Positions 5,427 through 42,747 of a stretch of DNA of 64,000 bases are shown here, one piece after another. The stretch covers positions 109,084 to 173,083 of the forward strand of contig NZ_SMRO01000005.1 in NCBI RefSeq assembly GCF_004359985.1. Reading direction: 5' to 3'. A model generated the notes under the pieces. That model did not search any database and had not been told where the DNA came from. It worked only from the letters and a program-made list of their open reading frames with translations. The position numbers were made by a program, and so were the translations under genes. The stretch comes from Paraburkholderia flava (GTDB lineage Bacteria; Pseudomonadota; Gammaproteobacteria; Burkholderiales; Burkholderiaceae). How positions within the stretch are numbered: position 1 is the stretch's first letter; each line of letters starts with the position of its first letter.

Positions 5427-5458
5427 GCGGGACAACGACAGCGGTTAACGCGCGCCGC

Positions 5459-9790: not shown

Positions 9791-10044
9791 TGGGCTGGTT
9801 CGGCATTCTGGTGCTCGGCGTCGCAGTGGGTCTCGCTGGTAGATGGCTGCACCCGCTGCGCCGTGCGAGCCGCGCCCGCTGGTGGATGGCGGTCGCGGCC
9901 GGCGTCGCCGGCGCGGTGATCGGCCTGATGGCCGGCAACGTGACTGGTCTCTTTCATGATGGCGATCTGCTCGAGTGGCCGGTGTGCACGGCTGCCGCGC
10001 TGATCGCCGTCGCCGTGACGGTCGGCCTGTTATCCCGTCGATGA
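9790..10044 (+). CDS. small integral membrane protein, GlsB/YeaQ-like
   Basis: 84 residues with three hydrophobic segments (about 2-17, 30-53 and 61-80) separated by short charged loops; the third ends in RR. Size and glycine-rich first helix (GWFGILVLGVAVGLAGRWL) resemble the GlsB/YeaQ/YmgE family of stress-associated inner-membrane proteins, but the match is weak. GAGG at 9778-9781 could be its ribosome site. It is 19 nt upstream of the peptidase gene and probably shares its transcript. Function unknown. Confidence 0.6.
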   Translation: MGWFGILVLGVAVGLAGRWLHPLRRASRARWWMAVAAGVAGAVIGLMAGNVTGLFHDGDLLEWPVCTAAALIAVAVTVGLLSRR

Positions 10045-10063
10045 ACGCTAGCAGGTGAATCCG

Positions 10064-24933: not shown

Positions 24934-25242
24934 CGATGGGTCTCCTTCGATACTTGCGTGTGAGCGCCTCTCGGGCGGATGCGCGATTCTAATTCGGGTC
25001 GATGACAATAAAATGCTGGAGTCCTGCGGATCGACCGGCACAGATTCTTTCGCTGTATTGCACGGTTGATCGCACATCTACGCCGGTTGCAACCGGCTTT
25101 GCAGGCCCATAAAAGGCGCAATGTATCACTGGTTTTGCCGAACCCTGCATCGGCGGAAACGCGGATTGCGCTGTGGCCTTCGACAAAGCGCCATGCTGGT
25201 GCAACGCCGCTGTCGCGTCCTCCCGCCACCCCGCCGGTATAT
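24934..25242. other. ugpB side of the ugpB-porin intergenic region
   Basis: No gene is apparent. This part should hold the ugpB promoter and any pho-type or catabolite sites, but I could not identify a convincing -35/-10 pair close to ugpB. Confidence 0.4.
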
Positions 25243-25302
25243 CCCAAAAATATGGAACGACGTCCAAAAATATATTGGACGTTCCTTTCAGTCTGCTTTA
25301 TG
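25243..25302. promoter_or_regulatory. palindrome and direct repeat overlapping the porin promoter
   Basis: CCAAAAATAT occurs twice exactly 20 bp apart (25243-25252, 25263-25272). An interrupted inverted repeat spans 25253-25284 (GGAA plus CGTCCAA against TTGGACG plus TTCC). Its right arm contains the plus-strand -35 candidate TTGGAC (25274-25279), with a -10-like TTATGT 17 bp on (25297-25302). The left arm contains a TTGGAC on the minus strand as well. Probably an operator controlling the porin and perhaps ugpB. Confidence 0.5.
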
Positions 25303-25414
25303 TTCAACCACCCTCGACTGCCGGATGCCGGGCGTTGGGGTTTCGCCTCAGGCTGCGGGCAGCACCGCTCGCTGCAACGACAAGAAATTCATAGATTCCT
25401 GGAGACGGATTCAG

Positions 25415-26572: not shown

Positions 26573-26607
26573 TTTTGTTCTGCCGGTTCTGCCGGTTTGC
26601 GGAAAAG

Positions 26608-26646
26608 AAATGCCGGGCCGGGTTCGACAGACCCGGCCCGGCATTT
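26608..26646. terminator. bidirectional terminator between porin and efflux operon
   Basis: A 16-bp stem (26608-26623 with 26631-26646) and 7-nt loop, followed by further T residues on the plus strand. Serves the convergent porin and the efflux OMF gene, whose stop lies 2 bp away. Confidence 0.9.
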
Positions 26647-26647
26647 T

Positions 26648-28054
26648 TTATTTCGCGTTCGCGTTCGCGCTCTCGATGCTGTCGGCACTCCAGCCGCCGC
26701 CCATCGCCTGATAAAGCTGCACGCGCGAACTCAGCGCGTTCGCGCGAATCTGCACGACGCTCAGCTGTGCGGAGAGCAGACCGCGCTGCGCATCGAGTTG
26801 ATCGAGATAGGTCGTGTAGCCTTCGCGATAACGGTTGGTCGCGATGCGCAGCGTTTCGACCAGCGTGTCGCGCTGCGCTTTGACCAAGGTCAGTTGCTCG
26901 TCGTAGTGCTGCGCCGACGCGAGCGCGTCTTCGACTTCACGAAAGGCCGTCAGTACCGTACCGCGATAGGCGAACGCCGCTTCGTCGCGTTGCGCGCCTG
27001 CCTTGTCGGCTTCGGCGGTCAGCTTGCCGCCTTCGAACAGTGGCGCGAGCAGACTGCCGCCCAGTGACCAGATCGTGATCGGATCGATCTGCGCAGTCGA
27101 AAACGATCGACCCAGCGCGGTCGACAGACGCACCTGCGGCAGGAAGTTTTTCCGCGCGACGAGCAGCGATTTGTCCGCGGCCGCGAGCTGATACTCGGCC
27201 GCTGCGATATCGGGCCGACGACGCAGCAGGTTCGACGGCAGGCCTGCGGGAATGCCGGGCTCGGTCAACGCATCGAAGACGGCGCCGCGTTCGATCGCCG
27301 ACGGTGTTTCGTCGGTGAGCAGGCTCAACGCATTTTCGGCTTTCGCGATTGCCAGTTCAGTGCTGGGAATCAGTTGTTCGGTCGACTCGTACTCGGCCTG
27401 CGCCTGCTGTAGTTCCAGCTTCGACGAATAGCCCTGGTCGAATTGCCGTTTCGCGAGGCGCAGCGAATCGGCGCGCGCGGCGAGCGTTTCGTGGGCAATT
27501 TTCAGTTGCGCATCGAGACTGAGCAGTGTGATGTAGCCGCTCGCGGTCGCACCGGCAATCGATAGCCGCGTCGCGTCGCGTGCCGCTTCGCTGGCGAGAT
27601 ACGCATCGCGTGCCGCCGACTGTTGATCGGACAGCCGGCCAAACAGATCCACTTCCCACGCTGCTTCGACTTCGAACTGTCCGCCGCTTTGGAAAAGCTG
27701 CGTCCCAAAGCCGCTGACGCTGCTCGAGCGCAACGCACCGGCGTTCGCATCGAGCGTCGGCAGCAGTGCGGAGCGTGCCAGTTGCACGTTGGCACGCGCC
27801 GCGCGCACGCGACTCACAGCGACGTTGATATCGGTGTTGTTCGCGAGCGCCTTCTCGACCAGCGCGGTCATCGCCGGATCGCCGAATTGCCGCCACCATG
27901 CGGTATCGAGCGGCGTCGTCGGTCCGGCATCGGTGCGCCACGTTGCGGGCGGCGCGACGGCGGGCACCGTCGCGGTTTTTACCGGCGGCCCGGAGCAGGC
28001 CGCAAGCAGCAGCGCGACGGCGAGAAGAGAGACGGAGCGGTTCACGGGCTTCAC
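26648..28054 (-). CDS. NodT-family outer-membrane efflux lipoprotein
   Basis: 468 residues. Lipoprotein signal with lipobox LLAAC (Cys20), then two tandem OEP repeats of long helices typical of TolC/OprM-like trimers. Forms the outer-membrane duct of the tripartite pump whose adaptor and MFS pump are encoded just upstream. Its ATG overlaps the adaptor stop by 4 nt. Confidence 0.92.
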   Translation of the reverse strand: MKPVNRSVSLLAVALLLAACSGPPVKTATVPAVAPPATWRTDAGPTTPLDTAWWRQFGDPAMTALVEKALANNTDINVAVSRVRAARANVQLARSALLPTLDANAGALRSSSVSGFGTQLFQSGGQFEVEAAWEVDLFGRLSDQQSAARDAYLASEAARDATRLSIAGATASGYITLLSLDAQLKIAHETLAARADSLRLAKRQFDQGYSSKLELQQAQAEYESTEQLIPSTELAIAKAENALSLLTDETPSAIERGAVFDALTEPGIPAGLPSNLLRRRPDIAAAEYQLAAADKSLLVARKNFLPQVRLSTALGRSFSTAQIDPITIWSLGGSLLAPLFEGGKLTAEADKAGAQRDEAAFAYRGTVLTAFREVEDALASAQHYDEQLTLVKAQRDTLVETLRIATNRYREGYTTYLDQLDAQRGLLSAQLSVVQIRANALSSRVQLYQAMGGGWSADSIESANANAK

Positions 28055-29196
28055 TGTTGTTTACCGCCGTGTGTATCGATCGAGGTTTCGACCGACATCC
28101 CCGGCCGCAACCGCTGCGCCAGTTCCTGCCCCGGGTCCACGTTGATCCGCACGGCAATCCGCTGCGCGACCTTGACGAAATTTCCGGTCGCATTGTCGGA
28201 GCGGATCGCCGCGAATTCCGATCCGGTCGCTGGCGCGATTTCTTCGACGTGGCCGCGCAGTTTCGCACCGCCGAGCGCATCGACTTCGAACGTCGCCGCC
28301 TGGCCGACGCGCATGTGGTGGGTCTGCGCTTCCTTATAGTTCGCGACGATCCACACGCTGTGCGGAACCAGCGACATCAGCTGCGTACCGGCCGTGACGT
28401 AAGCACCGTTGCGCACGCCGACTTCGGACAGCTGCCCATCGACCGGTGCACGGATGACCGTGTGCCCCAGGTCGATCTGCGCGCTGAGCAACGCGGCCTG
28501 ATTCGCATCGATCGCGGCCTGCAGACCCGGACGCGCGACGAGCACCGTGCGCACATCTTCCGAACCGATCGCGCGACTCGCGAGCGCCTGCTGCAACGAC
28601 GCCTGCGCGGCGAGCAGCGCCTCGCGCGCCTGGTCGTGTTCGCGCTTCGACAGCGAGCCGTCCTTGACCAGCGCGTCGGCGCGTCGCATGTCCGCCTCGG
28701 TGCGCGCGAGTTGTGCGCGGGCGCTCGCGATATTCGCTTCCTGGCCCTGGATCGCGATTTCGCGCGAGCGCTGCGACTGCGTGGAATTCGCGAAGGTCGC
28801 GCGCTGCGCGGCGAGGTTCGCTTCGGCCTGCATGACCCGCGCGCGATAGGTGCTGTCGTCGATCGTCACGAGCACCTGGCCGGTCTTCACCTCGGCGAAG
28901 TCGCTGACCGGCACGCTCGTCACGTAGCCGCTCACCTGCGGACTGATCGTCGTCACGAATCCGCGCACATACGCGTTGTCGGTTTTTTCGGGGAGACCGG
29001 AGAACGGCGGCAGTCGCCACGCGTACAGCACGACGAGGATCGCGACGATCGCGAGCACGACGATCGCGATGATGGTCGTGAGATTTTTCTCGGGCGGGCG
29101 CCAGCCGTGCGGCGCGCCGAGCGGGTCGGCAGCGGGGGTAGCAGATGCAGCGGGCCCGGGAGTGGCCTTCGACGGCCCGGTGTTCTGTGTGTTCAT
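28051..29196 (-). CDS. EmrA-type membrane fusion protein (HlyD family)
   Basis: 381 residues: cytoplasmic N-terminus rich in Pro/Ala, one transmembrane helix (about 42-62), lipoyl half-motif starting at TDNAYVRGFVTTISPQVSGY, a long coiled coil (about 120-215) and a beta-barrel. It links the MFS pump to the outer-membrane channel in EmrAB-type export of hydrophobic drugs. Lies 15 nt after the pump gene and overlaps the OMF gene. Confidence 0.92.
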   Translation of the reverse strand: MNTQNTGPSKATPGPAASATPAADPLGAPHGWRPPEKNLTTIIAIVVLAIVAILVVLYAWRLPPFSGLPEKTDNAYVRGFVTTISPQVSGYVTSVPVSDFAEVKTGQVLVTIDDSTYRARVMQAEANLAAQRATFANSTQSQRSREIAIQGQEANIASARAQLARTEADMRRADALVKDGSLSKREHDQAREALLAAQASLQQALASRAIGSEDVRTVLVARPGLQAAIDANQAALLSAQIDLGHTVIRAPVDGQLSEVGVRNGAYVTAGTQLMSLVPHSVWIVANYKEAQTHHMRVGQAATFEVDALGGAKLRGHVEEIAPATGSEFAAIRSDNATGNFVKVAQRIAVRINVDPGQELAQRLRPGMSVETSIDTHGGKQQ

Positions 29197-29211
29197 CGAG
29201 TCGCTTACCTT

Positions 29212-30873
29212 TTACCTGTTTCCGACGTTACTTTCGTGGCTGGCCTGTGCCGCGAGCGCAGCCTGGGCGGCCTGAGCCTGCATGACTTTTTGTTGAAGCG
29301 CGACGATCGGCGAAAGCTCGTTGTTCCGCCGTACCGACCAGCGAATCGCGTAGCCCCACAACAGCGTGAGCACTGCGAGTACGCCGACCAGCAGGAACAC
29401 GTCGTTATACGCGAGGATATTGGCCTCGCGTGTCACGGTCTGCGCGAAACGGGCCATGCCGGCGGCATGAATGCGCGCGGCGATGACGGGATTGGCGAGA
29501 TCGATCGACTGCACGAGTTCGTTCGAATGGAAACGCTCGCGGATGATCTGGAACGTGCCGAGCAACGCGGTGCCGATCTGCCCGCCGACGCTCTGGCTGA
29601 TGTTGAACAGCACCACGAACGTGACGAAATGCTGGCCGCCCGCGAGCAGCACCTGCGCCATCCCGATCACCATCGCGCGGCCGAGGAACAGCAGCGACGC
29701 GAACCCGATCAGCGCCTGGCTGAAGTAGAAGTTTTCCGGTCGCGTGAGGTTGGTCGCGCCGGCATCGAGGAACGCGCCGACGGCGATCAGCAGCACCGCG
29801 AGCCGGACCGCCGATGCGGGATTGTCCGGTCTGAATGTCAACACGCTGACTGCGATGCCGGCAATCGACGCCGAGAGGATGATCAGGTTCAGCGTGATCA
29901 TCTGGTCGTTGAGCATGCCGAAGAGCGTCAGCAATCCGACCGAGCCGAACGCCTGCTCGGACAGCAGAATGCGGATCGTGGCGGCCACCAGAATCACCCG
30001 CATCATCTCTCGTCTGGTGAGCCAGCGGGTGTTGATCAGCGGGTTTGCGCGCCGATGTTCGACCAGCATCCCCGCGGTGACCAGCGCGATGCCGGCGGCT
30101 AGCGACCAGCCCATCCATGCACGCTCCATCCACCATTCGATGCGTCCTTCGGACACCACCGCGACCACCAGCGCGAGACCGGGGGCGAGCAGCGCGAAGG
30201 TGAGGAAATCGAGTGGCTCGAAGACCTTGACCCGATCGCTGCGCGGTAACGGCAGCAGCATCACTGCGGTAAGCGACGCGAGCGCCAGCGCGAACTCGAA
30301 CCAGTAGAGCATGTGCCAGTCGCCGGTATTCAGCAGGCCAGGCGACAGCACGCGCGCGAGCGGCACGGCGAGCTGCGGAATGCTGATGCCGATCATGATG
30401 CCGTGCAGCTTTTTCGGCGGGAGCATCGATTGCAGCAGATAGTTGATCGCGAGTGTCGTCAAACCGGCTGCGGATACCGCGCTGATCGCGCGCACCGCGA
30501 CCGCCATCCAGAAACTCTCGACGAACAGATGCAGCAGATTGATCAGCGCATACGCGACGAGCGTGCCGCGGATAAAACGCTGCAGGCCGAATTGCTGCCG
30601 ATACTTCACCAGCAGCAGATTCACCGACACGTACACCATGAAATACGCGGCACTCAGCCAGTTGGCTTCGTCGCTGAAGAGGCCGAGCGTGCCCTGCGCG
30701 AAGTTCAGGTTCACCACGACCAGCGCGTTGCCCAGGCCTTGGGTGATACCGAGCAGACAACCTATCGCGAAATACCCGGCGCGACGTGCGCCCGGATGCT
30801 CGGGATTGTAGGGAGAGCCGGGCAGCGATGGCCGCTCGCTCGGCTTGAAGACGTACTCGATCGGCTCTGACAT
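29212..30873 (-). CDS. EmrB/QacA-type MFS drug exporter (DHA2 family)
   Basis: About 553 residues with up to 14 transmembrane helices, the DHA2 drug:H+ antiporter layout, and a charged C-terminal tail rich in Ala/Gln. First gene of the efflux operon. Start is uncertain: ATG at 30873 (MSEPIEYVFKPSE) gives the usual length, while in-frame starts at 30942 and 30972 would add 23-33 residues; none has a convincing ribosome site. Exports an unknown toxic compound; no regulator gene is adjacent. Confidence 0.88.
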   Translation of the reverse strand: MSEPIEYVFKPSERPSLPGSPYNPEHPGARRAGYFAIGCLLGITQGLGNALVVVNLNFAQGTLGLFSDEANWLSAAYFMVYVSVNLLLVKYRQQFGLQRFIRGTLVAYALINLLHLFVESFWMAVAVRAISAVSAAGLTTLAINYLLQSMLPPKKLHGIMIGISIPQLAVPLARVLSPGLLNTGDWHMLYWFEFALALASLTAVMLLPLPRSDRVKVFEPLDFLTFALLAPGLALVVAVVSEGRIEWWMERAWMGWSLAAGIALVTAGMLVEHRRANPLINTRWLTRREMMRVILVAATIRILLSEQAFGSVGLLTLFGMLNDQMITLNLIILSASIAGIAVSVLTFRPDNPASAVRLAVLLIAVGAFLDAGATNLTRPENFYFSQALIGFASLLFLGRAMVIGMAQVLLAGGQHFVTFVVLFNISQSVGGQIGTALLGTFQIIRERFHSNELVQSIDLANPVIAARIHAAGMARFAQTVTREANILAYNDVFLLVGVLAVLTLLWGYAIRWSVRRNNELSPIVALQQKVMQAQAAQAALAAQASHESNVGNR

Positions 30874-31016
30874 GAAGTGGGGGGACTCCGCTTGGGACAC
30901 GACCCGCTCTGCAAGCAAACCGGGATAGCTTTTCTGAACCATTAGACGAAACATCGTCGTCGGTTGTGACATGGTTGCGGCGGCGTACCTCGCGCCAAAG
31001 CATACTATCGGGCGGT

Positions 31017-31027
31017 TGGTTTAACCA
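31017..31027. promoter_or_regulatory. short palindrome upstream of the efflux operon
   Basis: TGGTTTAACCA is a perfect odd-length palindrome about 45-145 bp upstream of the possible efflux start codons, near a minus-strand -10-like TAGTAT. Could be a repressor half-site pair; no regulator is encoded next to it. Confidence 0.25.
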
Positions 31028-31324
31028 CACGCATGTCGCGATGAAGGTCGGACTCGACCCGATGCAAAATCTACGCAAGATCGAGCGGGATGGGGCGGGT
31101 GTATTGACGTGTCGAAATATCGACGTGCGATGGTGTCGAAGTCCGTAGTCATTTTCAAATGGCGATTATGCGTGAGCGTTCGACTACGGAAATTCTCTGG
31201 AAAAAGCTGAAGCGTTAAAAAAGAAAACGGCGTGACACTTCGGGATTTAAACAGCTCGATAAAACCGCGCTAATTGAAACCGCGAAGTTCGCAAATTGCC
31301 AGGTGCCGGGCAATCGAATCGCAG

Positions 31325-31353
31325 TTGACAACCTAAAAATGGCTTGCTCCAAT
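31325..31353 (+). promoter_or_regulatory. candidate promoter of the encapsulin biosynthetic cluster
   Basis: A perfect -35 box TTGACA (31325-31330) and a weaker -10 box TCCAAT (31348-31353) are 17 bp apart, in the AT-rich region about 240 bp before the first gene. A transcript from here would have a long leader. Confidence 0.45.
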
Positions 31354-31595
31354 CGTGCCGGCGATTTGCCCATTTAAAAAATAATCCAGAAATCGAGCCA
31401 CAACGGCTCACGAGACAAGAACATCACGGCGTCATCTTTCCGGTATCCCGTACGGCGGCATATTTGTCGTCGGCGATATCGTGCTTTCGGTTTTCGGAAT
31501 TGCAGCAGCAGATTTTATTCAATGCGAAATGCATAAACGCGTCGGCTTGGGCTGGCGTATCCGATTGATTTGGCTTTCTGTGTCTATCCATAAAC

Positions 31596-34500
31596 ATGGT
31601 ACGAACACATTTAACGCCTTCAGAAAGTGAAAGTACGGCCGGTGCGTTTGATATTGCCGATCCGGCAACGTCGACGCATTACGAGGTGCAGATACTCGGC
31701 CATTATGCGAGGCCCGTTCGGCGCATCGAGCCGATCGCGGATGCGCGGACGTTGACACTGACGGCCGCGCTCGCCGCGATCGAAACCTGTGCGCGACTCG
31801 ATCGCTATTTGCCGGTGATCGTCGACAGTCGTCAACGGCGCGATACCGCGCCCGGCATCGCGCATTGGACCGGGTGGCCGGAGTCGCTGAACTTCGCGTC
31901 GCGCGATCGTGCGCTGCGGCTGCTCGATGCCGCGCGCAGCAGCGACGTCCCCGATCGCGCGATGCAGGTCGATCTGATCAGTCGTCCCGTCGAACTGAAT
32001 GCGGGACGCGCAGCGGTGCGCATTCTGTGCCGGCTTGGCGAAGAGATGCTGTCGGTGATCGCCGTCTGCGCAGAGGACGATCCGTGGGCGCAGGCGTGCG
32101 ACGCGGTCGCCGAACTGTATGCCGAAATCCTGCACGAACTGCTGACCGATCCCGACGCAACGCCTGCCACCGCGCGCGGTCTCGGCTCCGCTTCGTTCGA
32201 GAGCGTGGTCGGTGCGCTTGCAGGCGAAGCGCGCGACCACGGTGCGTGGCGCGCGATTCCGCAGATGATTGAAGACAGCGTGGATGCGCATCCGGCGCGC
32301 CCCGCGTTTTGCTTCGACGGCCGCTGGCTCACCTACGCGGAATTCGATCGCCGGGCGAATGCATTTGCCGCCCAGCTTGCCGCGCGCGGCGTGACGAAAG
32401 GCGCGATCGTGCCGGTGCTGCTCGCGAACAGTCTTGAAATGCCGGTCGCGTATCACGCACTGATGAAGCTCGGCGCCGCGTTCGTGCCGCTCGATCACGC
32501 GTGGCCGGTCGAACGCCTCGTGCAGGCACTGGAAGAACTGTCGAGCGACGTGGTCGTCTGCGCAAACGCGGACGACTTGCCCGAGACATTTCGCGCCGGC
32601 GCGCTCGCGATCGACATCGACCGGCTCGAACCGCAGCGTACGCGGCCCGACGTCGCGATCGAACCGGACGATGCGATCTACGGAATCTTCACGTCGGGCA
32701 CGACGGGTCGCGCGAAGTGCGCGCTGAATCTGCACGGCGGCCTCGCGAATCGCTTTCGCTTCATGTCGCGCTATTTCGATCGGGTGGCGGGTGAGCGCGC
32801 GTGCATTCTGCAAAACAGCCGGCACACGTTCGACTCGTCGGTGTGGCAACTGTTCTGGCCGCTGACGACCGGCGCGAAGGTCGTGATTCCGAAGCAGGGC
32901 GCGTTCCTCGATCTCGAGACGACGGTCGACACGGTCGCGCGCTACGGCGTCACGATGACCGACTTCGTGCCGAGCGTGTTCAACCAGATCGTCGCGCTCG
33001 CCGAACACGACGACCAGGTGTGCGCGAAGCTGTCGACGCTCGCGGAACTAATCGTCGGCGGCGAGGAAATTACGCCGCCGATGGTTCACAAGATGCGCGC
33101 GCTGTTGCCGCATCTGCGGATCACGAATGCGTACGGTCCGACGGAGACGTCGATCGGCATGGTCTTTCATCCGGCCGAAGCGGCGGACGGCATGTCGATT
33201 CCGATCGGCCGCCCGATCGACAATTGCTACGTCGTGATCGTCGATCCTGAACTGCGGCCGTTGCCGCCGGGCGCGTGCGGCGAGCTGCTGATCGGCGGGA
33301 TCTGCGTCGGCGCTGGTTACGTCGGACGACCCGAACTCACCGCGCGCGTCTTCATCGACAACCCGTTCCCGACGATTCCCGGCGCGAAGCTCTACCGGAC
33401 CGGCGACCTCGGCTGTTTCGACAGTCATGGCGAACTGCGTTTCGTCGGCCGCAAGGATTTTCAGGTGAAAGTGGGCGGCGTGCGGATCGAACTCGGCGAG
33501 ATCGAGGCGGCTGCGGAGCGTTGTCCGCATGTGCATCACGCGAAGGCGTTCGTCGCGGGCGAGCGCAGCGCGCGGTCGATCGCGCTCTTCGTGACCGGCA
33601 CGGCGGATCTCGACCGCGCGACGGTCGAGCGTCATCTGCGCGGCGTGCTGCCGCGTGCGTCGCTGCCGCGGCATTACTTCGTGCTCGCGTCGATGCCGCT
33701 CGCGGAAAGCGGGAAGGTGAATCGCAAGGTTCTGCAGCAACAGCTCGACGACTATCTCGCCGACACCGATCGTCAGGTGCTGCACGCGGTGCCCGTCGCC
33801 GACGACGATGTGACCGCGCGCGTGCTCGCCGTGTTCGCCGCGCAGTTGCGTTGCGCGGACCTCGGTGTCGACGACGATTTCTTCGAAGCGGGCGGGGATT
33901 CGCTCAACGCGCTTGCGACTGCGATCGAGCTTGAACGGCTGTTCGGGCTGCGCTTCAGCGTCAGCGATCTGCTCGCGCATCCGAGTGCGGCGAAGGCTGG
34001 GGTGTATATCGAGCAGCGGCTGGGTGGTGGCGGCGCGGACGAGCCAGACGAATCTGAGGCGGCATTGATGGAGCGCGATGCGCATGTCTTCGCGAGCGCA
34101 CTGCAGGCGACGCAGCACGGCACATCGGCGGCTGCGGACGCTGGGCTCCGCAATCGCATCGAGCATGCAGGGCGCGCATCGAACGCATCGAGCACGTCGA
34201 ACGCACAGCACGCACCGCGCAGCTTGCTACTCACAGGCGGCACCGGTTTCATCGGCAGCTATCTCGCGAAGTCACTGCTGGATCGCGACGACGATCTTGA
34301 GGTCGTGGTGCTTCTGCGCGCGGACGGCGATCCGCAGCGCCGGCTGATCGAATGCTTCAATGAAAAGCACCTGTGGGACGAGCGCTATGCGGGCCGGCTT
34401 CACGCAGTCGCAGGCGATCTCGCAGCAACAGGACTAGGCCTGGACGCCCCGGACCGCGACGCACTCGCCGCACGCTTCGACGCGATCGTCCACTGCGGCG

Positions 34501-35324
34501 CGCTCGTCAATTTCGCCTACGACTATCGTGCGCATCGCGCGTCGAACGTACTCGCGACACAGCAGTTGCTGCGCCTGTCGTTCGAACATCACGAGAAGCC
34601 GTTCTTCTTCGTGTCGACGCTCGGCGCGTTCGAACAGGAAGCCGCGCAACGCGCAGCGCTACTCGACGAAGCGTTAGACCCTCACCATACGATCGTTCCG
34701 CGTTCCGGCTACAGCCGCTCGAAGTGGGTTGCCGAACGGATGTTGCTCGACGCGCGCGCAAGCGGTTTGCCGGTCACCGTGTTCCGGCTCGGCGAGGTGA
34801 TGCCGTCGAGCGGCGGCGTGAGTTGCGTGCCGAATCCGCGCGCGCTCACGCATTTCCTGTTGACGGCGATGGCGCAGTTGAACGCGAGACCCGCAGTGCC
34901 GATGCGTTCGGACTGGTCGCCGGTCGACTATGTCGCGTCGCGCGTGGCGTCGGCGGTCTTCGATGCCGACACGTGGGGTCGTGCGTATCACGTCTTCCAT
35001 CCACGCAGCGTGCGTTTCGACGACGCGTTTTCTCACACCGGCACTGCGCTCGATACGCTGTCGTGCACGCAATGGCTCGCCGCGCTCGATGCATGCATCG
35101 CGCAGCATGGATCGCACGAACTGAGTTTGCTGCGCAGACTGCTGCCGTCCACGCCAACCGACGAGGCCACGCTCGCCGCGACGTTCTCGTCGCTGCTGAC
35201 GAACAATCCTGGTCTTTTCGACAGAGCTGGCTGCGATGCGCTCGAACGCACGCACGGTCTCGCGGACGTCGATCTGGATCACGCGATCGCGCGATATGGC
35301 CGTCAGTTGCTCGGCGCGGGTTGA
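31596..35324 (+). CDS. NRPS-like megasynthase: unknown N-domain, adenylation, carrier, thioester reductase
   Basis: 1242 residues. The first ~215 residues match nothing I recognise. An adenylation domain follows (about 220-720): A3 TSGTTGRAK near 367, A4 FDSSVWQ, A5 NAYGPTETS near 511, A8 RTGDLG near 601 and the catalytic A10 Lys in ESGKVNRK near 706. A carrier domain has GGDSL with Ser769 for phosphopantetheine. After an Ala/Ser/Gly linker comes a reductase domain with TGGTGFIG at 880-887 and catalytic Tyr1039/Lys1043 (YSRSK). No condensation domain. It should activate one amino or other carboxylic acid and release it as aldehyde or alcohol. The ATG at 31596 lacks a ribosome site, so the start is tentative. 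First of eight co-directional genes. Confidence 0.9.
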   Translation: MVRTHLTPSESESTAGAFDIADPATSTHYEVQILGHYARPVRRIEPIADARTLTLTAALAAIETCARLDRYLPVIVDSRQRRDTAPGIAHWTGWPESLNFASRDRALRLLDAARSSDVPDRAMQVDLISRPVELNAGRAAVRILCRLGEEMLSVIAVCAEDDPWAQACDAVAELYAEILHELLTDPDATPATARGLGSASFESVVGALAGEARDHGAWRAIPQMIEDSVDAHPARPAFCFDGRWLTYAEFDRRANAFAAQLAARGVTKGAIVPVLLANSLEMPVAYHALMKLGAAFVPLDHAWPVERLVQALEELSSDVVVCANADDLPETFRAGALAIDIDRLEPQRTRPDVAIEPDDAIYGIFTSGTTGRAKCALNLHGGLANRFRFMSRYFDRVAGERACILQNSRHTFDSSVWQLFWPLTTGAKVVIPKQGAFLDLETTVDTVARYGVTMTDFVPSVFNQIVALAEHDDQVCAKLSTLAELIVGGEEITPPMVHKMRALLPHLRITNAYGPTETSIGMVFHPAEAADGMSIPIGRPIDNCYVVIVDPELRPLPPGACGELLIGGICVGAGYVGRPELTARVFIDNPFPTIPGAKLYRTGDLGCFDSHGELRFVGRKDFQVKVGGVRIELGEIEAAAERCPHVHHAKAFVAGERSARSIALFVTGTADLDRATVERHLRGVLPRASLPRHYFVLASMPLAESGKVNRKVLQQQLDDYLADTDRQVLHAVPVADDDVTARVLAVFAAQLRCADLGVDDDFFEAGGDSLNALATAIELERLFGLRFSVSDLLAHPSAAKAGVYIEQRLGGGGADEPDESEAALMERDAHVFASALQATQHGTSAAADAGLRNRIEHAGRASNASSTSNAQHAPRSLLLTGGTGFIGSYLAKSLLDRDDDLEVVVLLRADGDPQRRLIECFNEKHLWDERYAGRLHAVAGDLAATGLGLDAPDRDALAARFDAIVHCGALVNFAYDYRAHRASNVLATQQLLRLSFEHHEKPFFFVSTLGAFEQEAAQRAALLDEALDPHHTIVPRSGYSRSKWVAERMLLDARASGLPVTVFRLGEVMPSSGGVSCVPNPRALTHFLLTAMAQLNARPAVPMRSDWSPVDYVASRVASAVFDADTWGRAYHVFHPRSVRFDDAFSHTGTALDTLSCTQWLAALDACIAQHGSHELSLLRRLLPSTPTDEATLAATFSSLLTNNPGLFDRAGCDALERTHGLADVDLDHAIARYGRQLLGAG

Positions 35325-35362
35325 TATACATCATCAAGCGAAGTCACAAGCGAGGAGCCGCA

Positions 35363-36346
35363 ATGCATTACCGAAGAATGGGACGTCTAGGCTGGCAGGT
35401 CAGCGAGGTCGGCTACGGCATGTGGGGCATTGCCGGCGGCCCCGGCAACTTCACCGGCGCGAACTACGACACCGCGCCCCACTGTCTCGATGCGGCAGTC
35501 GAAGCCGGTTGCAATTTCTTCGACACCGCATGGGTCTACGGACGCGGTATCAGCGAAGAGATGCTGGGACGCGTGCTGCGCTCGCATCCGGATCGCCGGC
35601 TGTACGTCGCGACGAAGATTCCGCCGAAGAACCGCGAGTGGCCGCCGCGCGCTCACGACACGCTCGACGACGTCTTTCCGGCTGCACACATTCGCGAGTA
35701 CACGCAGCGCAGTCTCGAGAATCTCGGCGTCGACCGGATCGATCTGATGCAGTTCCATGTGTGGGACGACCGCTGGGCTCACGACGAATCGTGGCAGCGC
35801 ACGATGAGCGATCTGCGTGCCGAAGGGCTGATCGAAGGCATCGGGATCAGCGTGAATCGCTGGGAGCCGGCCAACTGCGTGAAGGCGATTGAAACCGGGC
35901 TCATCGACGTGATCCAGGTGATCTACAACATCTTCGATCAGGCGCCCGAAGACGAACTGTTCCGCGTCGCGCAGGAACGCGATATCGGGATCATCGCGCG
36001 CGTGCCGTTCGACGAAGGCGGCCTGACCGGCACGCTGACGCGCACCAGCACCTTCCCTCCCGAAGACTGGCGCAGCACCTATTTCGGTCCCGAGAATCTC
36101 GGGCCGACGGTCGAGCGTGCCGACGCGTTGAAGCGCATCGTGCCCGACGGCTCGACGCTGCCGGAACTCGCGCTACGTTTCATTCTTCATCATCCGGCGG
36201 TGTCGACGGTGATCCCCGGCATGCGACAGCTCGCGAACGTGCGCGCGAACATGGGCGTGAGCGATGCGCCGCCGTTGTCGCCCGAGCTGCTGGCGGAGTT
36301 GCGCCGGCATCGCTGGGATCGCTTGCCGACTGCGTGGTCGCAATGA
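35363..36346 (+). CDS. aldo/keto reductase
   Basis: 327 residues, a TIM-barrel NADPH reductase. The catalytic tetrad is visible: Asp and Tyr in FFDTAWVYG, Lys in VATKIPP and His in MQFHVW. AGGAG lies 5 nt before the ATG at 35363. It starts 38 nt after the megasynthase, so it may reduce the aldehyde released by the reductase domain, or a ketone on the same scaffold; this is inference from context. Confidence 0.88.
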   Translation: MHYRRMGRLGWQVSEVGYGMWGIAGGPGNFTGANYDTAPHCLDAAVEAGCNFFDTAWVYGRGISEEMLGRVLRSHPDRRLYVATKIPPKNREWPPRAHDTLDDVFPAAHIREYTQRSLENLGVDRIDLMQFHVWDDRWAHDESWQRTMSDLRAEGLIEGIGISVNRWEPANCVKAIETGLIDVIQVIYNIFDQAPEDELFRVAQERDIGIIARVPFDEGGLTGTLTRTSTFPPEDWRSTYFGPENLGPTVERADALKRIVPDGSTLPELALRFILHHPAVSTVIPGMRQLANVRANMGVSDAPPLSPELLAELRRHRWDRLPTAWSQ

Positions 36347-36372
36347 ATGCAGCCGTTCACAGGAGATAACGC

Positions 36373-37098
36373 GTGAGCAAGATCATCGCGATGTGGGCGC
36401 ATCAGCGTGCGATGTCGACGGCGTTCCTGCGCATGATGCTGGAGCGCGGCGACGTGACCGTGATCCACGAGCCGCTGGTCACGCTGATCGATACCGGACG
36501 CGTGAGCGTGCCGGACGTCGACGGCTCGACGATCGAAGTGGACTCGGAAGCCGCGCTGTTCGCGCAGATGCGCGTGCTCGCGCAGACGCGTCCGGTGTTC
36601 TTCAAGGACACCGTCGAGCATCGTTATCGCTATCTGTTCGAGCATCCCGAGGCGATCGCCGATTTCGAGCACACGTTCATCGTGCGCGAGCCGCATAGGA
36701 CGATCAGCTCGCTGTATCACATGAAGCCCACGATCACGTGTCCCGAGGTGGGCTACGAGCATCTGTTCGAGATCTTCGAACTGATCAGCAGCTTGAAGAC
36801 TTCGCCGCCGCTGGTGATCGACGCGGAACGGCTCATCGCCGACCCGCGAACCGTCGTCGCGCGCTGGTGCCGCGAGACCGGTCTGCCGTTCCTCGACCAC
36901 GCGCTCACCTGGCAGCCCGAGGATCGTCCCGAATGGCAGCGCACGCGGCAGTGGCATACGGGCGTATCGCAAAGCTCGGGATTCAGCGCGCAGCAGCACG
37001 ACTACGAGGTGACGGTCGACAACCATCCGATGCTCAAGCAGTACTTCGATCACCACCGTCCGTTTTACGAGCAGCTGGTTCGCCATGCGATCCGCTGA
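36373..37098 (+). CDS. sulfotransferase-like P-loop protein
   Basis: 241 residues. The N-terminal WAHQRAMSTAFLR is the 5'-phosphosulfate-binding loop of PAPS-dependent sulfotransferases, and FIVREPHRTISSLYHM fits the 3'-phosphate-binding helix with its Arg and Ser. It should transfer sulfate from PAPS to a hydroxyl or amine. The GTG start at 36373 is supported by AGGAGA 6 nt upstream. An APS kinase three genes downstream would make its donor. The catalytic base cannot be assigned without an alignment. Confidence 0.78.
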   Translation: MSKIIAMWAHQRAMSTAFLRMMLERGDVTVIHEPLVTLIDTGRVSVPDVDGSTIEVDSEAALFAQMRVLAQTRPVFFKDTVEHRYRYLFEHPEAIADFEHTFIVREPHRTISSLYHMKPTITCPEVGYEHLFEIFELISSLKTSPPLVIDAERLIADPRTVVARWCRETGLPFLDHALTWQPEDRPEWQRTRQWHTGVSQSSGFSAQQHDYEVTVDNHPMLKQYFDHHRPFYEQLVRHAIR

Positions 37099-37177
37099 AC
37101 CGTCTTCCGCAACGCGTTTCGTGCTTTTCATTCTTCAACCCGGTTTCCGCTTTTTCTCCTTATAGCGAGGCGAACTC

Positions 37178-38032
37178 ATGTCAGGCAATTCATCCGCGGT
37201 CGATGCAGCAGCGCAACTTTCGTCGGGCGAGACGTTTGCCCGCGCGTTCGTCGCGAACGGCCGGAACACCGAGGTTCATTTCGATTACACGATCACCGAG
37301 GCGTTCAAGCCGACCCAGGACCGGCCGCGTCTGATGGTGAGCCAGCTGTTTCGCAAGCGCCGCATCGATGCGCCGACGAGCCGCTTCTGGTCCGAGAGCC
37401 GGCCGCCCGCAGGCCAGACCGGCGATGTCTTCGAAGGGAAGCTGCGTCAGGAGGCGACATTCCGCTTCGGTACGAGCGAGGCCGAGGTGCGACCGATCTC
37501 CGCGTGGGTGCAGCTTCCCGAAGCGCTCTTCGGCGACGAGCGGGCGATCGCGGAGTTCATCGACTACCGTCTGCTGGTGCGCCTCGCGACCGCCGAGAAC
37601 CAGGCGTTGACGCTCGGCCCCAATGGGCTCTTGAACTATCCCGGCGTGACGCAGCTCAAGTATTCGGGCAGCTACGTCGACGGCGTGCTGGCCGCGTGCA
37701 ACGAGATCGAGCAGAACGGCGCGACCGCGCACGCGATGATCGTCAACTCGGTCGACTACTATCATCAGATGCTCGGCAAGGGCAGCCTCCTCGCCGACCT
37801 CAAGGCGAATGGCACGATCATCGTGCGGACGCGGATGGTCGCGCCGGGCTGTGCGCTCGTCGGTGATTTCGCGGTGGCGGCGCGTTTGCTGCATACGGGC
37901 AAGTCGGTGATCCGCGTCGGTACGCCGCCGACCGGCACGTTCGCGAGCGATGGTTTGGCTGTATGCGCGGAAATCTACGAAGGACTCGCCGTGCATCTGC
38001 CGACGCACTTCTTCCACGCTATGCCGGGCTAA
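37178..38032 (+). CDS. HK97-fold encapsulin-like shell protein
   Basis: 284 residues, encapsulin size. The order of segments fits the HK97 capsid fold: N-arm (1-30), an E-loop-like stretch (55-100), ISAWVQLPEALFGD (107-120) leading into a long spine helix (121-147), GLLNYPGV (150-157), then an A-domain with AHAMIVNSVDYYHQML (184-199), GCALVGDF (224-231) and a final strand ending PTHFFHAM (275-282). These are hallmarks of the phage major capsid family, yet no portal, terminase, protease or tail gene is present. Flanking genes are biosynthetic, so it probably self-assembles into a nanocompartment around one or more pathway enzymes. GAGG precedes the ATG by 7 nt. Fold assignment is from motif reading, not a search. 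Confidence 0.8.
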   Translation: MSGNSSAVDAAAQLSSGETFARAFVANGRNTEVHFDYTITEAFKPTQDRPRLMVSQLFRKRRIDAPTSRFWSESRPPAGQTGDVFEGKLRQEATFRFGTSEAEVRPISAWVQLPEALFGDERAIAEFIDYRLLVRLATAENQALTLGPNGLLNYPGVTQLKYSGSYVDGVLAACNEIEQNGATAHAMIVNSVDYYHQMLGKGSLLADLKANGTIIVRTRMVAPGCALVGDFAVAARLLHTGKSVIRVGTPPTGTFASDGLAVCAEIYEGLAVHLPTHFFHAMPG

Positions 38033-38098
38033 CGGCGCCGCGCGCGTGCGGCAGTGACCGGTCAACACCAGTCTTTCATCAAGGAACAGGGAGCGGCG

Positions 38099-39280
38099 AT
38101 GGACGAGCGCATTGAGGGGGGCGTCAAGACATCGGGATGGCGGTTCTACGGGACTTACATGCCGCTTTTTCTCGGCCTGTTCTGTTGTCACTTCGGGATC
38201 GGCGCGACGCTTTCCGTGCTGCCGTTCTACGTGAAAGACAGGATGGGCGGCAGCGACGTCAGCGTCGGAACGGTGATTGCCGCGATCGCGGTGGCCGTGG
38301 TGATCACGCGGCCGATCGCCGGGCGGCTGTCCGACCGGATCGGTCACAAGACGCTGATGATGATCGGCGCCGTGCTCTGCGCGCTCGCGGGCGCGTGCTA
38401 TGCGATCGCGTCGAATCTGGACCTGCTGGTTGCGGTCAGGGTGCTGCACGGCGTCGGCGAAGGTGCGGTGTTCACGGCGGGCGCGACTTGGCTCGTCGCG
38501 ATTGCGCCGGCCGAGCGGCGCGGCAAGATCGTCGGCCTGTACGGCGTCAGCATGTGGACGGGCGTGACGCTCGGGGCGCTTGCCGGCGCGACGCTGATGA
38601 AGGCGTTCGATTTCGGTCCGGTCTGGGCGGTCTGCACGGTGATGCCGGTGATCGGCGTGCTGTTGATGTCGCGCAAGTCGGCACCCGCGCGGGTCCGCGC
38701 CGCGAGAAAGGCCGCACTGTTTCCCGCGACCGCGTTCGTGCCGGGTGTCGCGCTCGCTTGTGCGTCGATGGGATATGCGGCACTCGCGTCGTTCGTGTCG
38801 CTGCACATGGCAAAGCGCGGTATCGACAACGGCATTCTGGCGTTCAACGTGTTCGGCTTCGCGTATGTCGGGTCGCGGCTGTTTCTCGGTCATCTGCCCG
38901 ACAAGCTCGGACCGTACCGCGTCGCGCTCGGCGCCGCGCTCGTCGAGGCGTGCGGACTGGTGCTGGTAGGCATTGCGCCGTCGCTGGCGGTCGCGGTGGT
39001 CGGCGGGTTCACGATGGGGCTGGGACTGTCGCTGCTTTATCCGTCGCTGGCGCTCGTCGTGATCCGCAACACCGACTCGTCGCAGCACGGTGCCGCGCTC
39101 GGGATGTTCACGTCGTTCTGGGATCTCGGTGTGGCCGCGGGCGGTATCGTTGCGGGCTTCGTCGCGAGTCGTACCGGCTATCCGGCGATCTATGTCGTGA
39201 TGCTGGTGTTCGCGGTTGTGTCGGCGGGTCTCGTGCCGCTTGCGGCGTTGCGTCGCACGGCGACAGTCTCGCAACCCTGA
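38099..39280 (+). CDS. MFS transporter (probable exporter of the cluster product)
   Basis: 393 residues with about 12 transmembrane helices; motif A reads GRLSDRIGHK between helices 2 and 3. Start at the ATG at 38099, with GGGAG just upstream; a GTG 15 codons earlier is an alternative. Sits in the middle of the biosynthetic operon, 66 nt after the shell gene, so export of, or resistance to, the product is the likely role. Confidence 0.87.
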   Translation: MDERIEGGVKTSGWRFYGTYMPLFLGLFCCHFGIGATLSVLPFYVKDRMGGSDVSVGTVIAAIAVAVVITRPIAGRLSDRIGHKTLMMIGAVLCALAGACYAIASNLDLLVAVRVLHGVGEGAVFTAGATWLVAIAPAERRGKIVGLYGVSMWTGVTLGALAGATLMKAFDFGPVWAVCTVMPVIGVLLMSRKSAPARVRAARKAALFPATAFVPGVALACASMGYAALASFVSLHMAKRGIDNGILAFNVFGFAYVGSRLFLGHLPDKLGPYRVALGAALVEACGLVLVGIAPSLAVAVVGGFTMGLGLSLLYPSLALVVIRNTDSSQHGAALGMFTSFWDLGVAAGGIVAGFVASRTGYPAIYVVMLVFAVVSAGLVPLAALRRTATVSQP

Positions 39281-39310
39281 ACCCACGCGGAGTGTCTGGA
39301 GAATTCATCA

Positions 39311-39907
39311 ATGAGTGGAAACAATCTCGTGTGGCAGGACGTGACGATCGGTGCCGAAGCACGTGCTGCGCAAAAGAACCAGCAGCCGTGCGTGCTCTGG
39401 TTCACCGGTCTGTCGGGCGCGGGTAAATCGACGATCGCGAATCTTGTCGATGAACGGCTCTTCGCGCGCAACCGCCACTGCTTCGTTCTCGATGGCGACA
39501 ACGTGCGGCACCGGCTCAATCGCGATCTCGGTTTCACCGACGAGGATCGCGCGGAGAACGTGCGACGAGCTGGCGAAGTCGCGCGGCTGATGGTCGATGC
39601 CGGGCTGATCGTGCTCGTCACGTTCATCTCGCCGTTTCGCGAGCAGCGGCTCGCGGCGCGGCGTCTGTTCGGCGCGCGCGAGTTCGTCGAAGTGCATGTC
39701 GATACGCCGCTCGAAGTCGCGGAGGCGCGCGATCCGAAAGGACTCTATCGCAAGGCGCGTAGCGGACTCATCACGCACTTCACCGGCGTCGACTCACCGT
39801 ACGAGGCACCCGACGAACCCGAGATCCGTCTCGACACCACGCGATGGAATGCGCAGCAATCGGCGGATGCGGTGCTAGCGTGGCTGGATCGAGAGAAGCT
39901 GATTTGA
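39311..39907 (+). CDS. cysC: adenylylsulfate (APS) kinase
   Basis: 198 residues, a stand-alone APS kinase. Walker [10 protein letters not shown] is near residue 33, followed by [15 protein letters not shown] (APS-binding), FISPFREQR and the mobile-lid [10 protein letters not shown] segment. It phosphorylates APS to PAPS, the donor for sulfotransferases. No ATP sulfurylase, PAPS reductase or other assimilation gene is nearby, so this copy looks dedicated to the sulfotransferase of this cluster. Its stop overlaps the TTG start of the oxidase. Confidence 0.93.
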
Positions 39908-41061
39908 ACGTCGATTTCGTCGTGATCGGCGGCGGGATGGCGGGCGCCGCGTGCGCGTATTGCCTGGCGGAAGCGGGGCGCGTCGCGTTGCTCGACGGCG
40001 AGGATGCGTTCGGCTATCACGCGACCGGGCGCTCGGCGGCGATCTTTTCCGAATACTTCGGCGCGCAGCCGGTGCGTCTGCTGACTGCGGCGAGTCGGGT
40101 GTTTTTCGAAAGTCCTCCGGATGGGTTCGTCGATGTACCGTTGGTGTCGCCACGCGGCACGATCGCGCTCGCGACTGCAGCCGACGTCGATGCCGGGCGC
40201 TTCGACGCCGCACTCGGCGAGAGTCGTCCGCCGCACGCAGCCGCTGTCGAGATCACGCTCGACGATGCGCGCTCGATGTGTCCGATCCTGTCGCCGGTAG
40301 AGTATGTGAGGGCGTTGAGCCGGCCCTCGGTGCTGGACATCGACGTCGACGCGCTACACCAGGGCTTTCTGCGCGGCGTGCGTGCACGCGGCGGCAGCAC
40401 GATTCGCGGCGCGCGCGTACGCGGCTTGCGTCGCGACGGTGCTGCGTGGCGGATCGATGCAACCGGCGAGCAGACATTCACCGCTGGGTGCGTCGTCAAT
40501 GCGGCCGGTGCGTGGGCCGACGAAGTCGCGGCGATGGCCGGTGTCGCGCCGATCGGACTGGTGCCGAAGCGTCGCACCGCAGTGCTCGTCGATGTACCGG
40601 ATGATCTGCAACTTCGCGCGTGGCCGCTGGTCACCGATCTCGCCGATACCTTTTACTTCAGGCCGGAAAGCGGCAAGCTGATGGTGAGTCCGTCCGACGA
40701 GACGCCCGTTGCACCGTGCGATGCGCAGCCGGAAGAACTGGACGTCGCCGTCGCGATTCAACGGCTCGAAGCGGTGACGACGCTGCGGGTCGCGCGGGTC
40801 GTGCGCAAGTGGGCCGGTCTGCGCAGTATGATCGCCGATGACGTGCCGGTGCTCGGTGCAACGCGCGACACGCCAAGGTTCGTCTGGGCGGCTGCATTCG
40901 GTGGTTACGGCATTCAGACGGCGCCTGCTGCGGGACGCGCGGTGGCCGCACTGGTCATGCGCGGTGAGTTGCCCGATGAGTTGCACGCCGTGGGTCTGAC
41001 CGAAGCGCGGTTGTCGCCTGAGCGCGTCGCAAGAGAACATAAAAATGGAGAGAGTCGATGA
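39904..41061 (+). CDS. FAD-dependent oxidoreductase, DAO (glycine/D-amino acid oxidase) family
   Basis: About 385 residues. N-terminal dinucleotide fold [19 protein letters not shown], the ATGRSAA segment, and a C-terminal FAD-binding [16 protein letters not shown], all typical of the DAO superfamily that oxidises amines or amino acids to imines with release of peroxide. I choose the TTG at 39904, which overlaps the cysC stop (TTGA) and follows a GAGAAG ribosome site; an ATG at 39844 inside cysC is the alternative. Its stop overlaps the next ATG, so the last three genes are translationally chained. Confidence 0.85.
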
Positions 41062-41576
41062 AATACCTGACCGGTTGCAGCATCGCGGCACTCGTACTTT
41101 CGCTTGTCAGCCACGCGACGTTCGCCGACGAAGCGCGCGTGAATCGCGGCAACGATCCGTTCTTTCAGATCTCGAAGGCGATCGCCGATTGCCCGGTGCC
41201 GCTCGGACCGCTCGTGACCGAGCAGGAGTGGCTCGACGATGCGCACTACCGGATCGAGCGCGGCAACAGCTGCTGGGTGGAGGGGCGTTGCAGGCTGTCG
41301 AACGGTTATCTGTACGACAAGGAAATCCAGGAAGCCGTCGGCCGGCGTCTGACGAACATCAACTACACGACGCATTGGCTCGACAACACGACACTGTGGT
41401 TCACGCTGCAGCGGCGGTTTATCTATGTGGAAGGATGCGTGTCGCCGGACTTCGACAAGGAGAAGTTCCTGACGGAACTCGGCAAGACCGCGGACGTCGA
41501 GCGGGTGATCGACAATACGATGACGGATCCGAAGGGGAAGCCGCCGTACAAGACGGTGACGGGGGTGGGGAAGTAG
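41058..41576 (+). CDS. exported BON-like protein at the end of the encapsulin cluster
   Basis: 172 residues. Signal peptide 1-24 (cleavage after TFA). The middle to C-terminus, from about residue 95, has the pattern of a BON domain: an acidic/Lys helix DKEIQEAVGRRLTNI, a strand pair ending FIYVEGCV, and a final helix TADVERVIDNTM. Four Cys in the mature part could form disulfides. ATG overlaps the oxidase stop (ATGA). An exported protein in this operon is unexpected; it may act in periplasmic handling or export of the product, or be a passenger. Function unknown. Confidence 0.6.
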   Translation: MKYLTGCSIAALVLSLVSHATFADEARVNRGNDPFFQISKAIADCPVPLGPLVTEQEWLDDAHYRIERGNSCWVEGRCRLSNGYLYDKEIQEAVGRRLTNINYTTHWLDNTTLWFTLQRRFIYVEGCVSPDFDKEKFLTELGKTADVERVIDNTMTDPKGKPPYKTVTGVGK

Positions 41577-41610
41577 TGATGTCTGGACGTCAAGGGTGAC
41601 GACCTGACGG

Positions 41611-41636
41611 ACCCCATGGCGCGATGTCCATGGGGT
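41611..41636. terminator. hairpin between the encapsulin cluster and ychF
   Basis: 9-bp arms ACCCCATGG (41611-41619) and CCATGGGGT (41628-41636) with an 8-nt loop, between two convergent genes. No T-run follows on either strand, so termination efficiency is doubtful. Confidence 0.5.
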
Positions 41637-41652
41637 GCAGTGTGGCTTGTCG

Positions 41653-42747
41653 TTAGACGTTAAACAGAAAATTCATCACGTCGCCATCATGCACGACGTA
41701 TTCCTTCCCTTCCGCCCGCATCTTGCCCGCTTCCTTCGCCCCATGCTCGCCCTTGTACGCGACGTAGTCCGCGAAGCCGATGGTCTGCGCGCGGATGAAG
41801 CCTCGCTCGAAGTCCGTGTGGATCACGCCGGCAGCCTGCGGTGCCGTGTCGCCGATATGGATCGTCCACGCGCGCACTTCCTTCACGCCTGCGGTGAAGT
41901 AGGTCTGCAGACCGAGCAGCTTGAAGGCCGCGCGGATCACGCGGCTCAGGCCCGGCTCTTCCATGCCCATGTCGGACAGGAACACTTCCTTGTCTTCGTC
42001 GGCGAGATCGGCGATCTCCGCTTCGATCGCGGCGCACACCGCGACGACCGGTGAATTTTCCGCTTCCGCGTGACGGCGCACTGCGTCGAGGTGCGGGTTG
42101 TTCTCGAAGCCGTCGTCCATCACGTTCGCGACGTACATCGTCGGCTTCGCGGTGATCAGGCAGAACGGCTTGAGCAGCGCATTCTCGTCGTCCGACAGCG
42201 ACAGCGCGCGGACCGGCTTCGCCTGGTCGAGCTGCGCGCGGACTTTTTCGAGCACGGCGGCGAGCTTGCCCGCTTCCTTGTCGTTACCGGACTTCGCGGC
42301 CTTCGAATAACGCGTCAGCGACTTTTCGACAGTAGCGAGGTCGGCGAGCGCGAGTTCGGTGTTGATCACCTCGATGTCCGACAGCGGATCGACCTTGCCC
42401 GCGACGTGGATCACGTTCTCGTCTTCGAAGCAGCGCACCACGTGCGTGATCGCATCGGTTTCGCGGATGTTCGCGAGGAACTGGTTGCCGAGCCCTTCGC
42501 CCTTGCTCGCGCCCGCGACGAGGCCCGCGATGTCGACGAATTCGACGACGGCCGGCACGATGCGCTCAGGCTTGACGATCTCGGCCAGCGCGTTCAGGCG
42601 CGCGTCCGGCACCTCGACGATGCCGACGTTCGGTTCGATCGTGCAGAACGGGTAGTTTTCGGCGGCGATGCCGGCCTTGGTCAGTGCGTTGAAAAGCGTG
42701 GACTTGCCGACGTTCGGCAGGCCGACGATGCCGCATTTGAGGCTCAT
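41653..42747 (-). CDS. ychF: redox-regulated ATPase/GTPase YchF (OLA1)
   Basis: 364 residues. OBG-like P-loop [18 protein letters not shown] near the N-terminus, ATP-preferring NVMD in place of NKxD, a coiled-coil insertion and a C-terminal TGS domain. YchF binds the ribosome and prefers ATP; it is linked to stress and translation control. Start at 42747 (MSLKCGIVG), the conserved family N-terminus. Confidence 0.97.

Follow-up and report, generated by a model that had tools for sequence, protein, structure and literature searches.

Family 3 ("natural product") encapsulins were described in 2021 by Andreas and Giessen, with their function left open (PMC8346489), and those parts of the 2021 papers that treat a "family 3 encapsulin" call its role and cargo unknown and give no solved structure. 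The survey's family 3 section names clusters with short-chain dehydrogenase/reductase (SDR)-sulfotransferase pairs, an amino-group carrier protein (AmCP), nonribosomal peptide or polyketide synthases (NRPS/PKS), and Mesorhizobium clusters. The other closely related systems are aziridine pathways: in the azinomycin and vazabitide route a sulfated amino alcohol is described as closing to an aziridine (PMC9570651; PMC12559475), and the aziridine of ficellomycin is likewise attributed to a sulfated amino alcohol in work cited in PMC8713700. Here we describe a 64,000-nucleotide stretch of Paraburkholderia flava DNA (the window), whose plus strand carries at 31596-41576 a cluster with a family 3 shell gene (ENC) alongside genes for an adenylation-thiolation-reduction synthetase (ATR), an aldo/keto reductase (AKR), a predicted sulfotransferase (ST) and a DAO-family flavoenzyme (DAO). 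Comparison of related loci points to sulfation as the most constant companion of the shell. Like the surveyed family, the cluster combines a match to model NF041188, an HK97-type fold in the predicted model and a biosynthetic setting with a sulfotransferase; unlike the clusters named in the family 3 section of PMC8346489, it has an ATR-AKR-ST-DAO architecture, which may nevertheless be one of the survey's six classes.

A preliminary description of this DNA had listed eight same-strand genes with short gaps or overlaps, and the open frames, strand and spacing bear this out. Eight plus-strand open reading frames, each without internal stop codons, are separated in order by 38, 26, 79, 21, 30, -64 and -4 bases; the overlap between the genes for adenosine 5'-phosphosulfate (APS) kinase (APSK) and DAO is 64 bases with ATG 39844 or 4 bases with the alternative TTG 39904. 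Pfam and NCBIfam agree with seven of the eight gene labels. The AKR start at 35363 gives the 327-residue protein, although some of the AKR profile and locus searches were run from a start at 35390, 27 bases too far in.

Features of the P. flava cluster (window positions; aa, residues)
Feature	Position	Strand	Basis
ATR, stand-alone A-T-R synthetase, 1242 aa	31596..35324	+	Pfam AMP-binding, PP-binding, NAD_binding_4
AKR, aldo/keto reductase, 327 aa	35363..36346	+	PF00248
ST, predicted PAPS-type sulfotransferase, 241 aa	36373..37098	+	PF19798
ENC, family 3 encapsulin shell protein, 284 aa	37178..38032	+	NF041188, PF05065
MFS (major facilitator superfamily) transporter, predicted exporter	38054..39280	+	PF07690 (MFS_1)
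APS kinase (APSK), predicted PAPS maker for ST	39311..39907	+	PF01583; TIGR00455 242 bits, cut-off 139
DAO-family flavoenzyme	39844..41061 (TTG 39904 = alternative start)	+	PF01266; 299 bits to 3nyc
Small protein, 172 aa, no assigned function	41058..41576	+	no family match
Divergent intergenic region 5' of ATR, 49.8% GC; likely operon promoter site	30973..31595	.

The profile match of ENC to the family 3 encapsulin model NF041188 (344.4 bits against a cut-off of 180, E 3.3e-103) places it in the natural-product group, as had been proposed from the letters alone; PF05065 matched weakly (26.4 bits, cut-off 24.2). The expected HK97 fold was also found: the predicted model of ENC has it, the nearest solved fold is the HK97 capsid protein, and ENC is predicted to form a shell. 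The family 1 encapsulin model PF04454 had no match in the P. flava genome and matched in 3 of 14 control genomes. The structural comparisons listed as VIA rows for ENC and ST re-look at Foldseek's own matches, so that families outside those matches stay possible.

Twenty-five loci chosen by the presence of ENC form what we call class A: 17 from a genome scan, the window, one further actinobacterial locus (L088) and six from Streptomyces (L131-L136). All 25 carry AKR and ST, 24 carry ATR, 22 DAO, 15 the MFS gene and 4 APSK. Relatives from two phyla (Betaproteobacteria and Actinobacteria) share the order and strand of ATR, AKR, ST and ENC wherever these are present, and gene order exceeds chance. 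The preliminary description had made its reading depend on a structural match of 37178-38032 to HK97 folds and on a gene order kept in relatives, and both were found; what is kept is an ATR-AKR-ST-ENC core, usually with DAO. Pairwise distances of six genes correlate as well (r 0.69-0.93; for each of the 15 pairs, none of 999 permutations came up to the observed value), which marks a unit moving together rather than contact between its products, and shared ancestry alone would suffice for it. The three loci without DAO are L005 and L016, both truncated by contig ends, and the Streptomyces locus L136, a decaying cluster in which the ENC gene (9539-10329) is split over two frames and ATR is partial. 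In Paracidovorax valerianellae (L003), ATR was not seen on the contig, and a transposase-like C-terminus, recognized by eye, lies at 3-281 just upstream of AKR. Nonomuraea sediminis has a second full DAO-ATR-AKR-ST-ENC cluster (L088:5286-12046), with a shell 54% identical to that of the window.

A second group, class B, consists of eight Streptomyces loci (L123-L130) whose shells are only 30-33% identical to the window ENC. In all eight, a sulfotransferase gene directly adjoins the shell gene; two of these proteins were scanned and match PF13469 (L125 and L128), and the remaining six are homologous to them. An APSK homologue lies within the stretch read in 7 of the 8. Besides an SDR and a pair of transketolase genes, five class B loci (L123-L127) encode a LysW-like protein whose tail reads EDWGE; a LysZ-LysK-like fusion is present in four of them, L124 being cut by its contig. 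This gene set resembles the azinomycin/vazabitide route. Genes for LysW, transketolase and LysZ-LysK were not found in the stretch read of L128-L130. The class B sulfotransferases have long low-complexity tails in L123-L127 and not in L128-L130, and L125 has an adenylation enzyme that shares 46% identity with one from the class A Streptomyces loci L014 and L131.

Taking both classes together, every one of the 33 loci, the window included, has ST and ENC side by side on one strand (ST upstream in 25, downstream in 8); the set contains several near relatives, and class B was sampled from Streptomyces only. Judged by gene content, it is thus sulfation, and not an aldehyde alone, that accompanies the family 3 shells examined without exception.

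Searches with AKR also yielded five loci (L089, L090, L091, L146 and L147) that have ATR, AKR and ST but show no ENC or DAO in the 16-20 kb read. Three of them (L089, L090 and L147) look closely related, so that the independent number is about three. Their adenylation pocket code is DSWDLGTIG in 5 of 5, against DSWDIGAIG in the window. A further AKR match, L092 (43%), has none of the other cluster genes. The cluster studied here is a compact version, about 10 kb long, that comes with a natural negative control in the form of shell-free sisters probably making the same kind of intermediate, and this comparison turns the focus away from the aldehyde and toward the sulfated product or the oxidation step.

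ATR comprises an adenylation domain (226-575), a carrier domain (742-799) and a thioester reductase domain (879-1115), with matches to TIGR01733 (362 bits, cut-off 317) and TIGR01746 (218 bits, cut-off 213) and a YxxxK motif at the reductase end. One adenylation pocket is kept across the betaproteobacterial and actinobacterial clusters. The activated acid had been given as a carboxylic or an amino acid; the Asp at pocket position 235, which we take to be the sign of an amino acid substrate, favors the latter. ATR is accordingly predicted to load one alpha-amino acid and to release an aldehyde or alcohol, and AKR to form an amino alcohol from the amino aldehyde by reduction. A basic substrate, for which Asp at position 278 (a rule we likewise assume) and the kinship of DAO to D-arginine dehydrogenase would speak, is weakened by the loss of Glu87 in all 16 DAO sequences mapped. 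The closest named synthetase is MxcG, of the myxochelin type: residues 169-1166 of ATR align to MxcG positions 403-1372, whereas ATR scores only 418 bits against an MxcG cut-off of 2300 and shows no condensation domain among its Pfam matches. The first 168 residues (window 31596-32100) precede this alignment and match no family, and this N-terminal part may be the remnant of a lost condensation domain. We considered it as a universal shell tag and set it aside, as there is little sequence before the adenylation domain in L006, L009, L014 and L015.

ST matches PF19798 (39.5 bits, cut-off 23.2), and its predicted fold matches sulfotransferases bound to 3'-phosphoadenosine 5'-phosphate (PAP) in Foldseek and VIA; it is predicted to sulfate a small molecule using 3'-phosphoadenosine 5'-phosphosulfate (PAPS). 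The best VIA rows are the sulfotransferase domains of olefin synthase (OLS) and of CurM from the curacin pathway, which belong to polyketide synthases and which we take to activate a hydroxyl for elimination. The suggestion that PAPS is made locally held up: APS kinase is encoded in the window and in the Trinickia locus (L002), CysD and CysN-C in L003, and APSK with CysQ in L004. ST is tied to PAPS more directly by the sister locus L091, where an ST homologue (38% identity) and an APS kinase (205 bits, cut-off 139) form one fused protein (L091:10434-11747). Of the 25 class A loci, 23 have an ST with the tail motif L(V/I)xHA, which none of the five shell-free loci shows.

The gene set, family membership, gene order, adenylation pocket and the ST-ENC adjacency can be read directly from the sequences compared. 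From them we tentatively favor a family 3 encapsulin cluster in which an amino acid would be converted to an amino alcohol and this to its sulfate, the APS kinase of the cluster supplying PAPS, and in which the shell likely encloses sulfation. ATR and AKR would turn one alpha-amino acid into an amino alcohol; ST, encoded next to the shell gene, would sulfate it with PAPS from APSK; and the shell would likely surround this step. Sulfation, or the reactive product that follows it, is placed in the shell because ST accompanies every shell examined. The product would be a 1,2-amino-alcohol sulfate, in which attack by the amine could expel the sulfate and close an aziridine, a reaction reported for the azinomycin and ficellomycin pathways, and the shell would hold this reactive product, or PAP, away from the cytoplasm. 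The MFS protein would export the product, and DAO may act early or late in the route, oxidizing an amine that bears a carboxylate or sulfate.

A more specific version, which we regard as unlikely, is that family 3 shells are Wenker reactors, in which an amino-alcohol sulfate closes to a DNA-alkylating aziridine inside the shell and the cell is spared until export. The source of the amino alcohol would then vary, from A-T-R plus AKR here to AmCP, transketolase and SDR in Streptomyces. The azinomycin, vazabitide and ficellomycin pathways share with the route predicted for the cluster the amino alcohol, the sulfotransferase and the neighboring amine, and the five class B loci described above share with azinomycin and vazabitide the LysW-like, transketolase and SDR genes; the window differs in using ATR and AKR in place of AmCP, transketolase and SDR. 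If the shell does confine an aziridine-forming step, it would be an encapsulin protecting its producer from the producer's own alkylating product.

Several observations weigh against placing sulfation in the shell. Sulfation genes are present in the five sister loci, so sulfation needs no shell, and class A actinobacterial loci have no APSK within the stretch read. ST is only 14-15% identical to the CurM and OLS domains, and by Foldseek E-value tyrosylprotein and heparan sulfotransferases come first, CurM following in eighth place (rank 8) and OLS at rank 12. The L(V/I)xHA motif sits at the end of and just past the last predicted helix and may be structural, and the AKR C-terminal tail HRWDRxPxxWS, considered as a shell tag, is the same in all five shell-free AKRs. 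In the window, Pfam and NCBIfam scans revealed no LysW or transketolase gene, AziU3/U2 having been outside the search. Finally, the survey's family 3 section describes a Mesorhizobium class without mentioning a sulfotransferase (PMC8346489); the loci compared here lie outside its Mesorhizobium and Myxococcus classes.

The survey itself proposes, in that section, that family 3 shells sequester reactive aldehyde or ketone intermediates (PMC8346489), and the preliminary description had likewise named an aldehyde as a reason for the shell. Here the shell would enclose AKR, with or without the reductase end of ATR, which would let the amino aldehyde be reduced ahead of any escape. Among the six proteins compared, AKR is indeed the best conserved: its mean identity between Beta- and Actinobacteria is 74%, against 59% for ENC. 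In class A it lies directly upstream of ST and ENC, except in the decaying L136, where it is 3.2 kb away. This conservation is not decisive as proof that AKR is cargo, as the AKR search scored at least 8000 relatives. An aldehyde alone would seem to call for no shell, because the sister loci hold ATR, AKR and ST, with a nearly identical pocket code, and no shell nearby, and the AKR tail does not set the two groups apart. The aldehyde idea is weakened by these loci, and we consider it improbable as the main reason for the shell.

Within class A, the best rival is that the shell encloses DAO, which would produce a reactive imine or hydrogen peroxide, because DAO goes with the shell: 22 of the 25 class A loci have it, and none of the 5 loci without a shell. 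By sequence, the closest solved relative of DAO is the D-arginine dehydrogenase of P. aeruginosa (DauA, or PaDADH; 3nyc). Our active-site map covers 16 sequences, and all retain Arg222 and Arg305, which bind the carboxylate in that enzyme, as well as Tyr249; unlike it, all 16 have replaced the cation-binding Glu87 and His48 (the L003 row is poorly aligned around His48), with a hydrophobic residue at the His48 position in 15. In the part of PMC11193025 that treats this enzyme, Glu87 is described as binding the guanidinium and the enzyme as a strict dehydrogenase, which speaks against peroxide, whereas a nonpolar residue and a positive charge near the flavin are said to permit reactivity with O2, in keeping with the replacements seen here. 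On the other side, DAO never adjoins ENC in the loci listed, and it was not found in the 13-20 kb read of any of the eight class B shell loci. Peroxide containment, also raised in the preliminary description, thus keeps some support for class A and loses it as a general reason for the shell; overall we think it quite unlikely that DAO is what the shell encloses.

The sulfate ester might instead be a stable final group, serving solubility or self-protection, with the shell only raising local enzyme concentration. The survey's family 3 section reads SDR-ST clusters as giving sulfated hydroxyl groups in the product (PMC8346489), and no aziridine-closing enzyme was identified in the window, where AziU3/U2 were not searched. 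Against this, five of the eight class B clusters resemble the azinomycin/vazabitide set, from which the sulfate reportedly leaves. The OLS and CurM domains in the best VIA rows for ST would presumably also make the sulfate a leaving group, and a stable sulfate seems doubtful to us on these grounds. That ENC is left over from a prophage capsid and plays no part in the pathway is very improbable: HK97 capsid is its nearest solved fold and a phage collection searched with ENC returned distant capsids only (nine Gordonia phage records, some of them duplicates, at 26.6% identity), but its context is a biosynthetic cluster with no phage genes among the eight proteins in Pfam and NCBIfam, and it co-diverges with five neighboring genes and holds its place in two phyla. 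A plasmid collection searched with ENC gave no match.

The family 3 encapsulins themselves were already known. To them we add the ATR/AKR/ST/DAO variant and its sister clusters lacking a shell, together with the ST-APSK fusion and the ST gene as unvarying neighbor. Our encapsulin literature search, which lay outside preprints and most subscription journals, met the architecture in no paper seen, apart from the possible overlap with the 2021 family survey.

The NF041188 cut-off was passed in 2 of 398 genomes of the P. flava family (its own and Trinickia terrae, L002), in 1 of 399 genomes of its order (its own) and in 14 of 343 Streptomyces genomes, that of L014 (G813) included. Matches below the cut-off, mostly in frames of 370-600 residues, are probably phage capsids. 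AKR was found at E <= 1e-60 in 3 of the 398 genomes of the family, namely both ENC carriers and a third (58% identity) without ENC.

Within the genus, the cluster appears to have been inserted between ugpB and ychF. These genes are 16.6 kb apart in the window (25077-41653) and 0.2-2.2 kb apart in 7 of 14 congeners (14 of 38, read for about 6 kb either side of ychF, with L061 cut by its contig). None of the 14 showed a match in this region to the efflux pump, ATR, AKR, ST, ENC or the last gene. At 64.8%, the GC content of the cluster lies near the 64.1% of the window. The same insertion holds efflux genes on the minus strand (26648-30972), divergently upstream of ATR: an outer-membrane factor (NodT/TolC-like by eye) and relatives of EmrA and EmrB. 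They had no match in the Trinickia flank read, and this pump may or may not serve the cluster. The operon promoter likely sits in the intergenic region between pump and ATR, where a sigma-70 scan found no sigma-70-like site. An Rfam scan gave no match.

The last gene of the cluster had been called BON-like, a label we drop, as Pfam, NCBIfam and PDB searches gave no match. Export of its product was judged by eye from the N-terminus alone. A paralogue sought in the P. flava genome was not found, and among the related loci searched, the gene matched only in Trinickia.

Two further sets of neighboring genes were seen in the related loci. The shell-free locus L091 carries an argininosuccinate-synthase-like gene (4962-6221; 152 bits, under the cut-off of 268). 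Five actinobacterial class A clusters (L009, L014, L015, L017 and L018, of which L009 was profile-scanned) have an additional adenylate-forming enzyme on the 5' side, and a RimK-like ATP-grasp gene, confirmed in L009 and L017, suggests amide products in those clusters.

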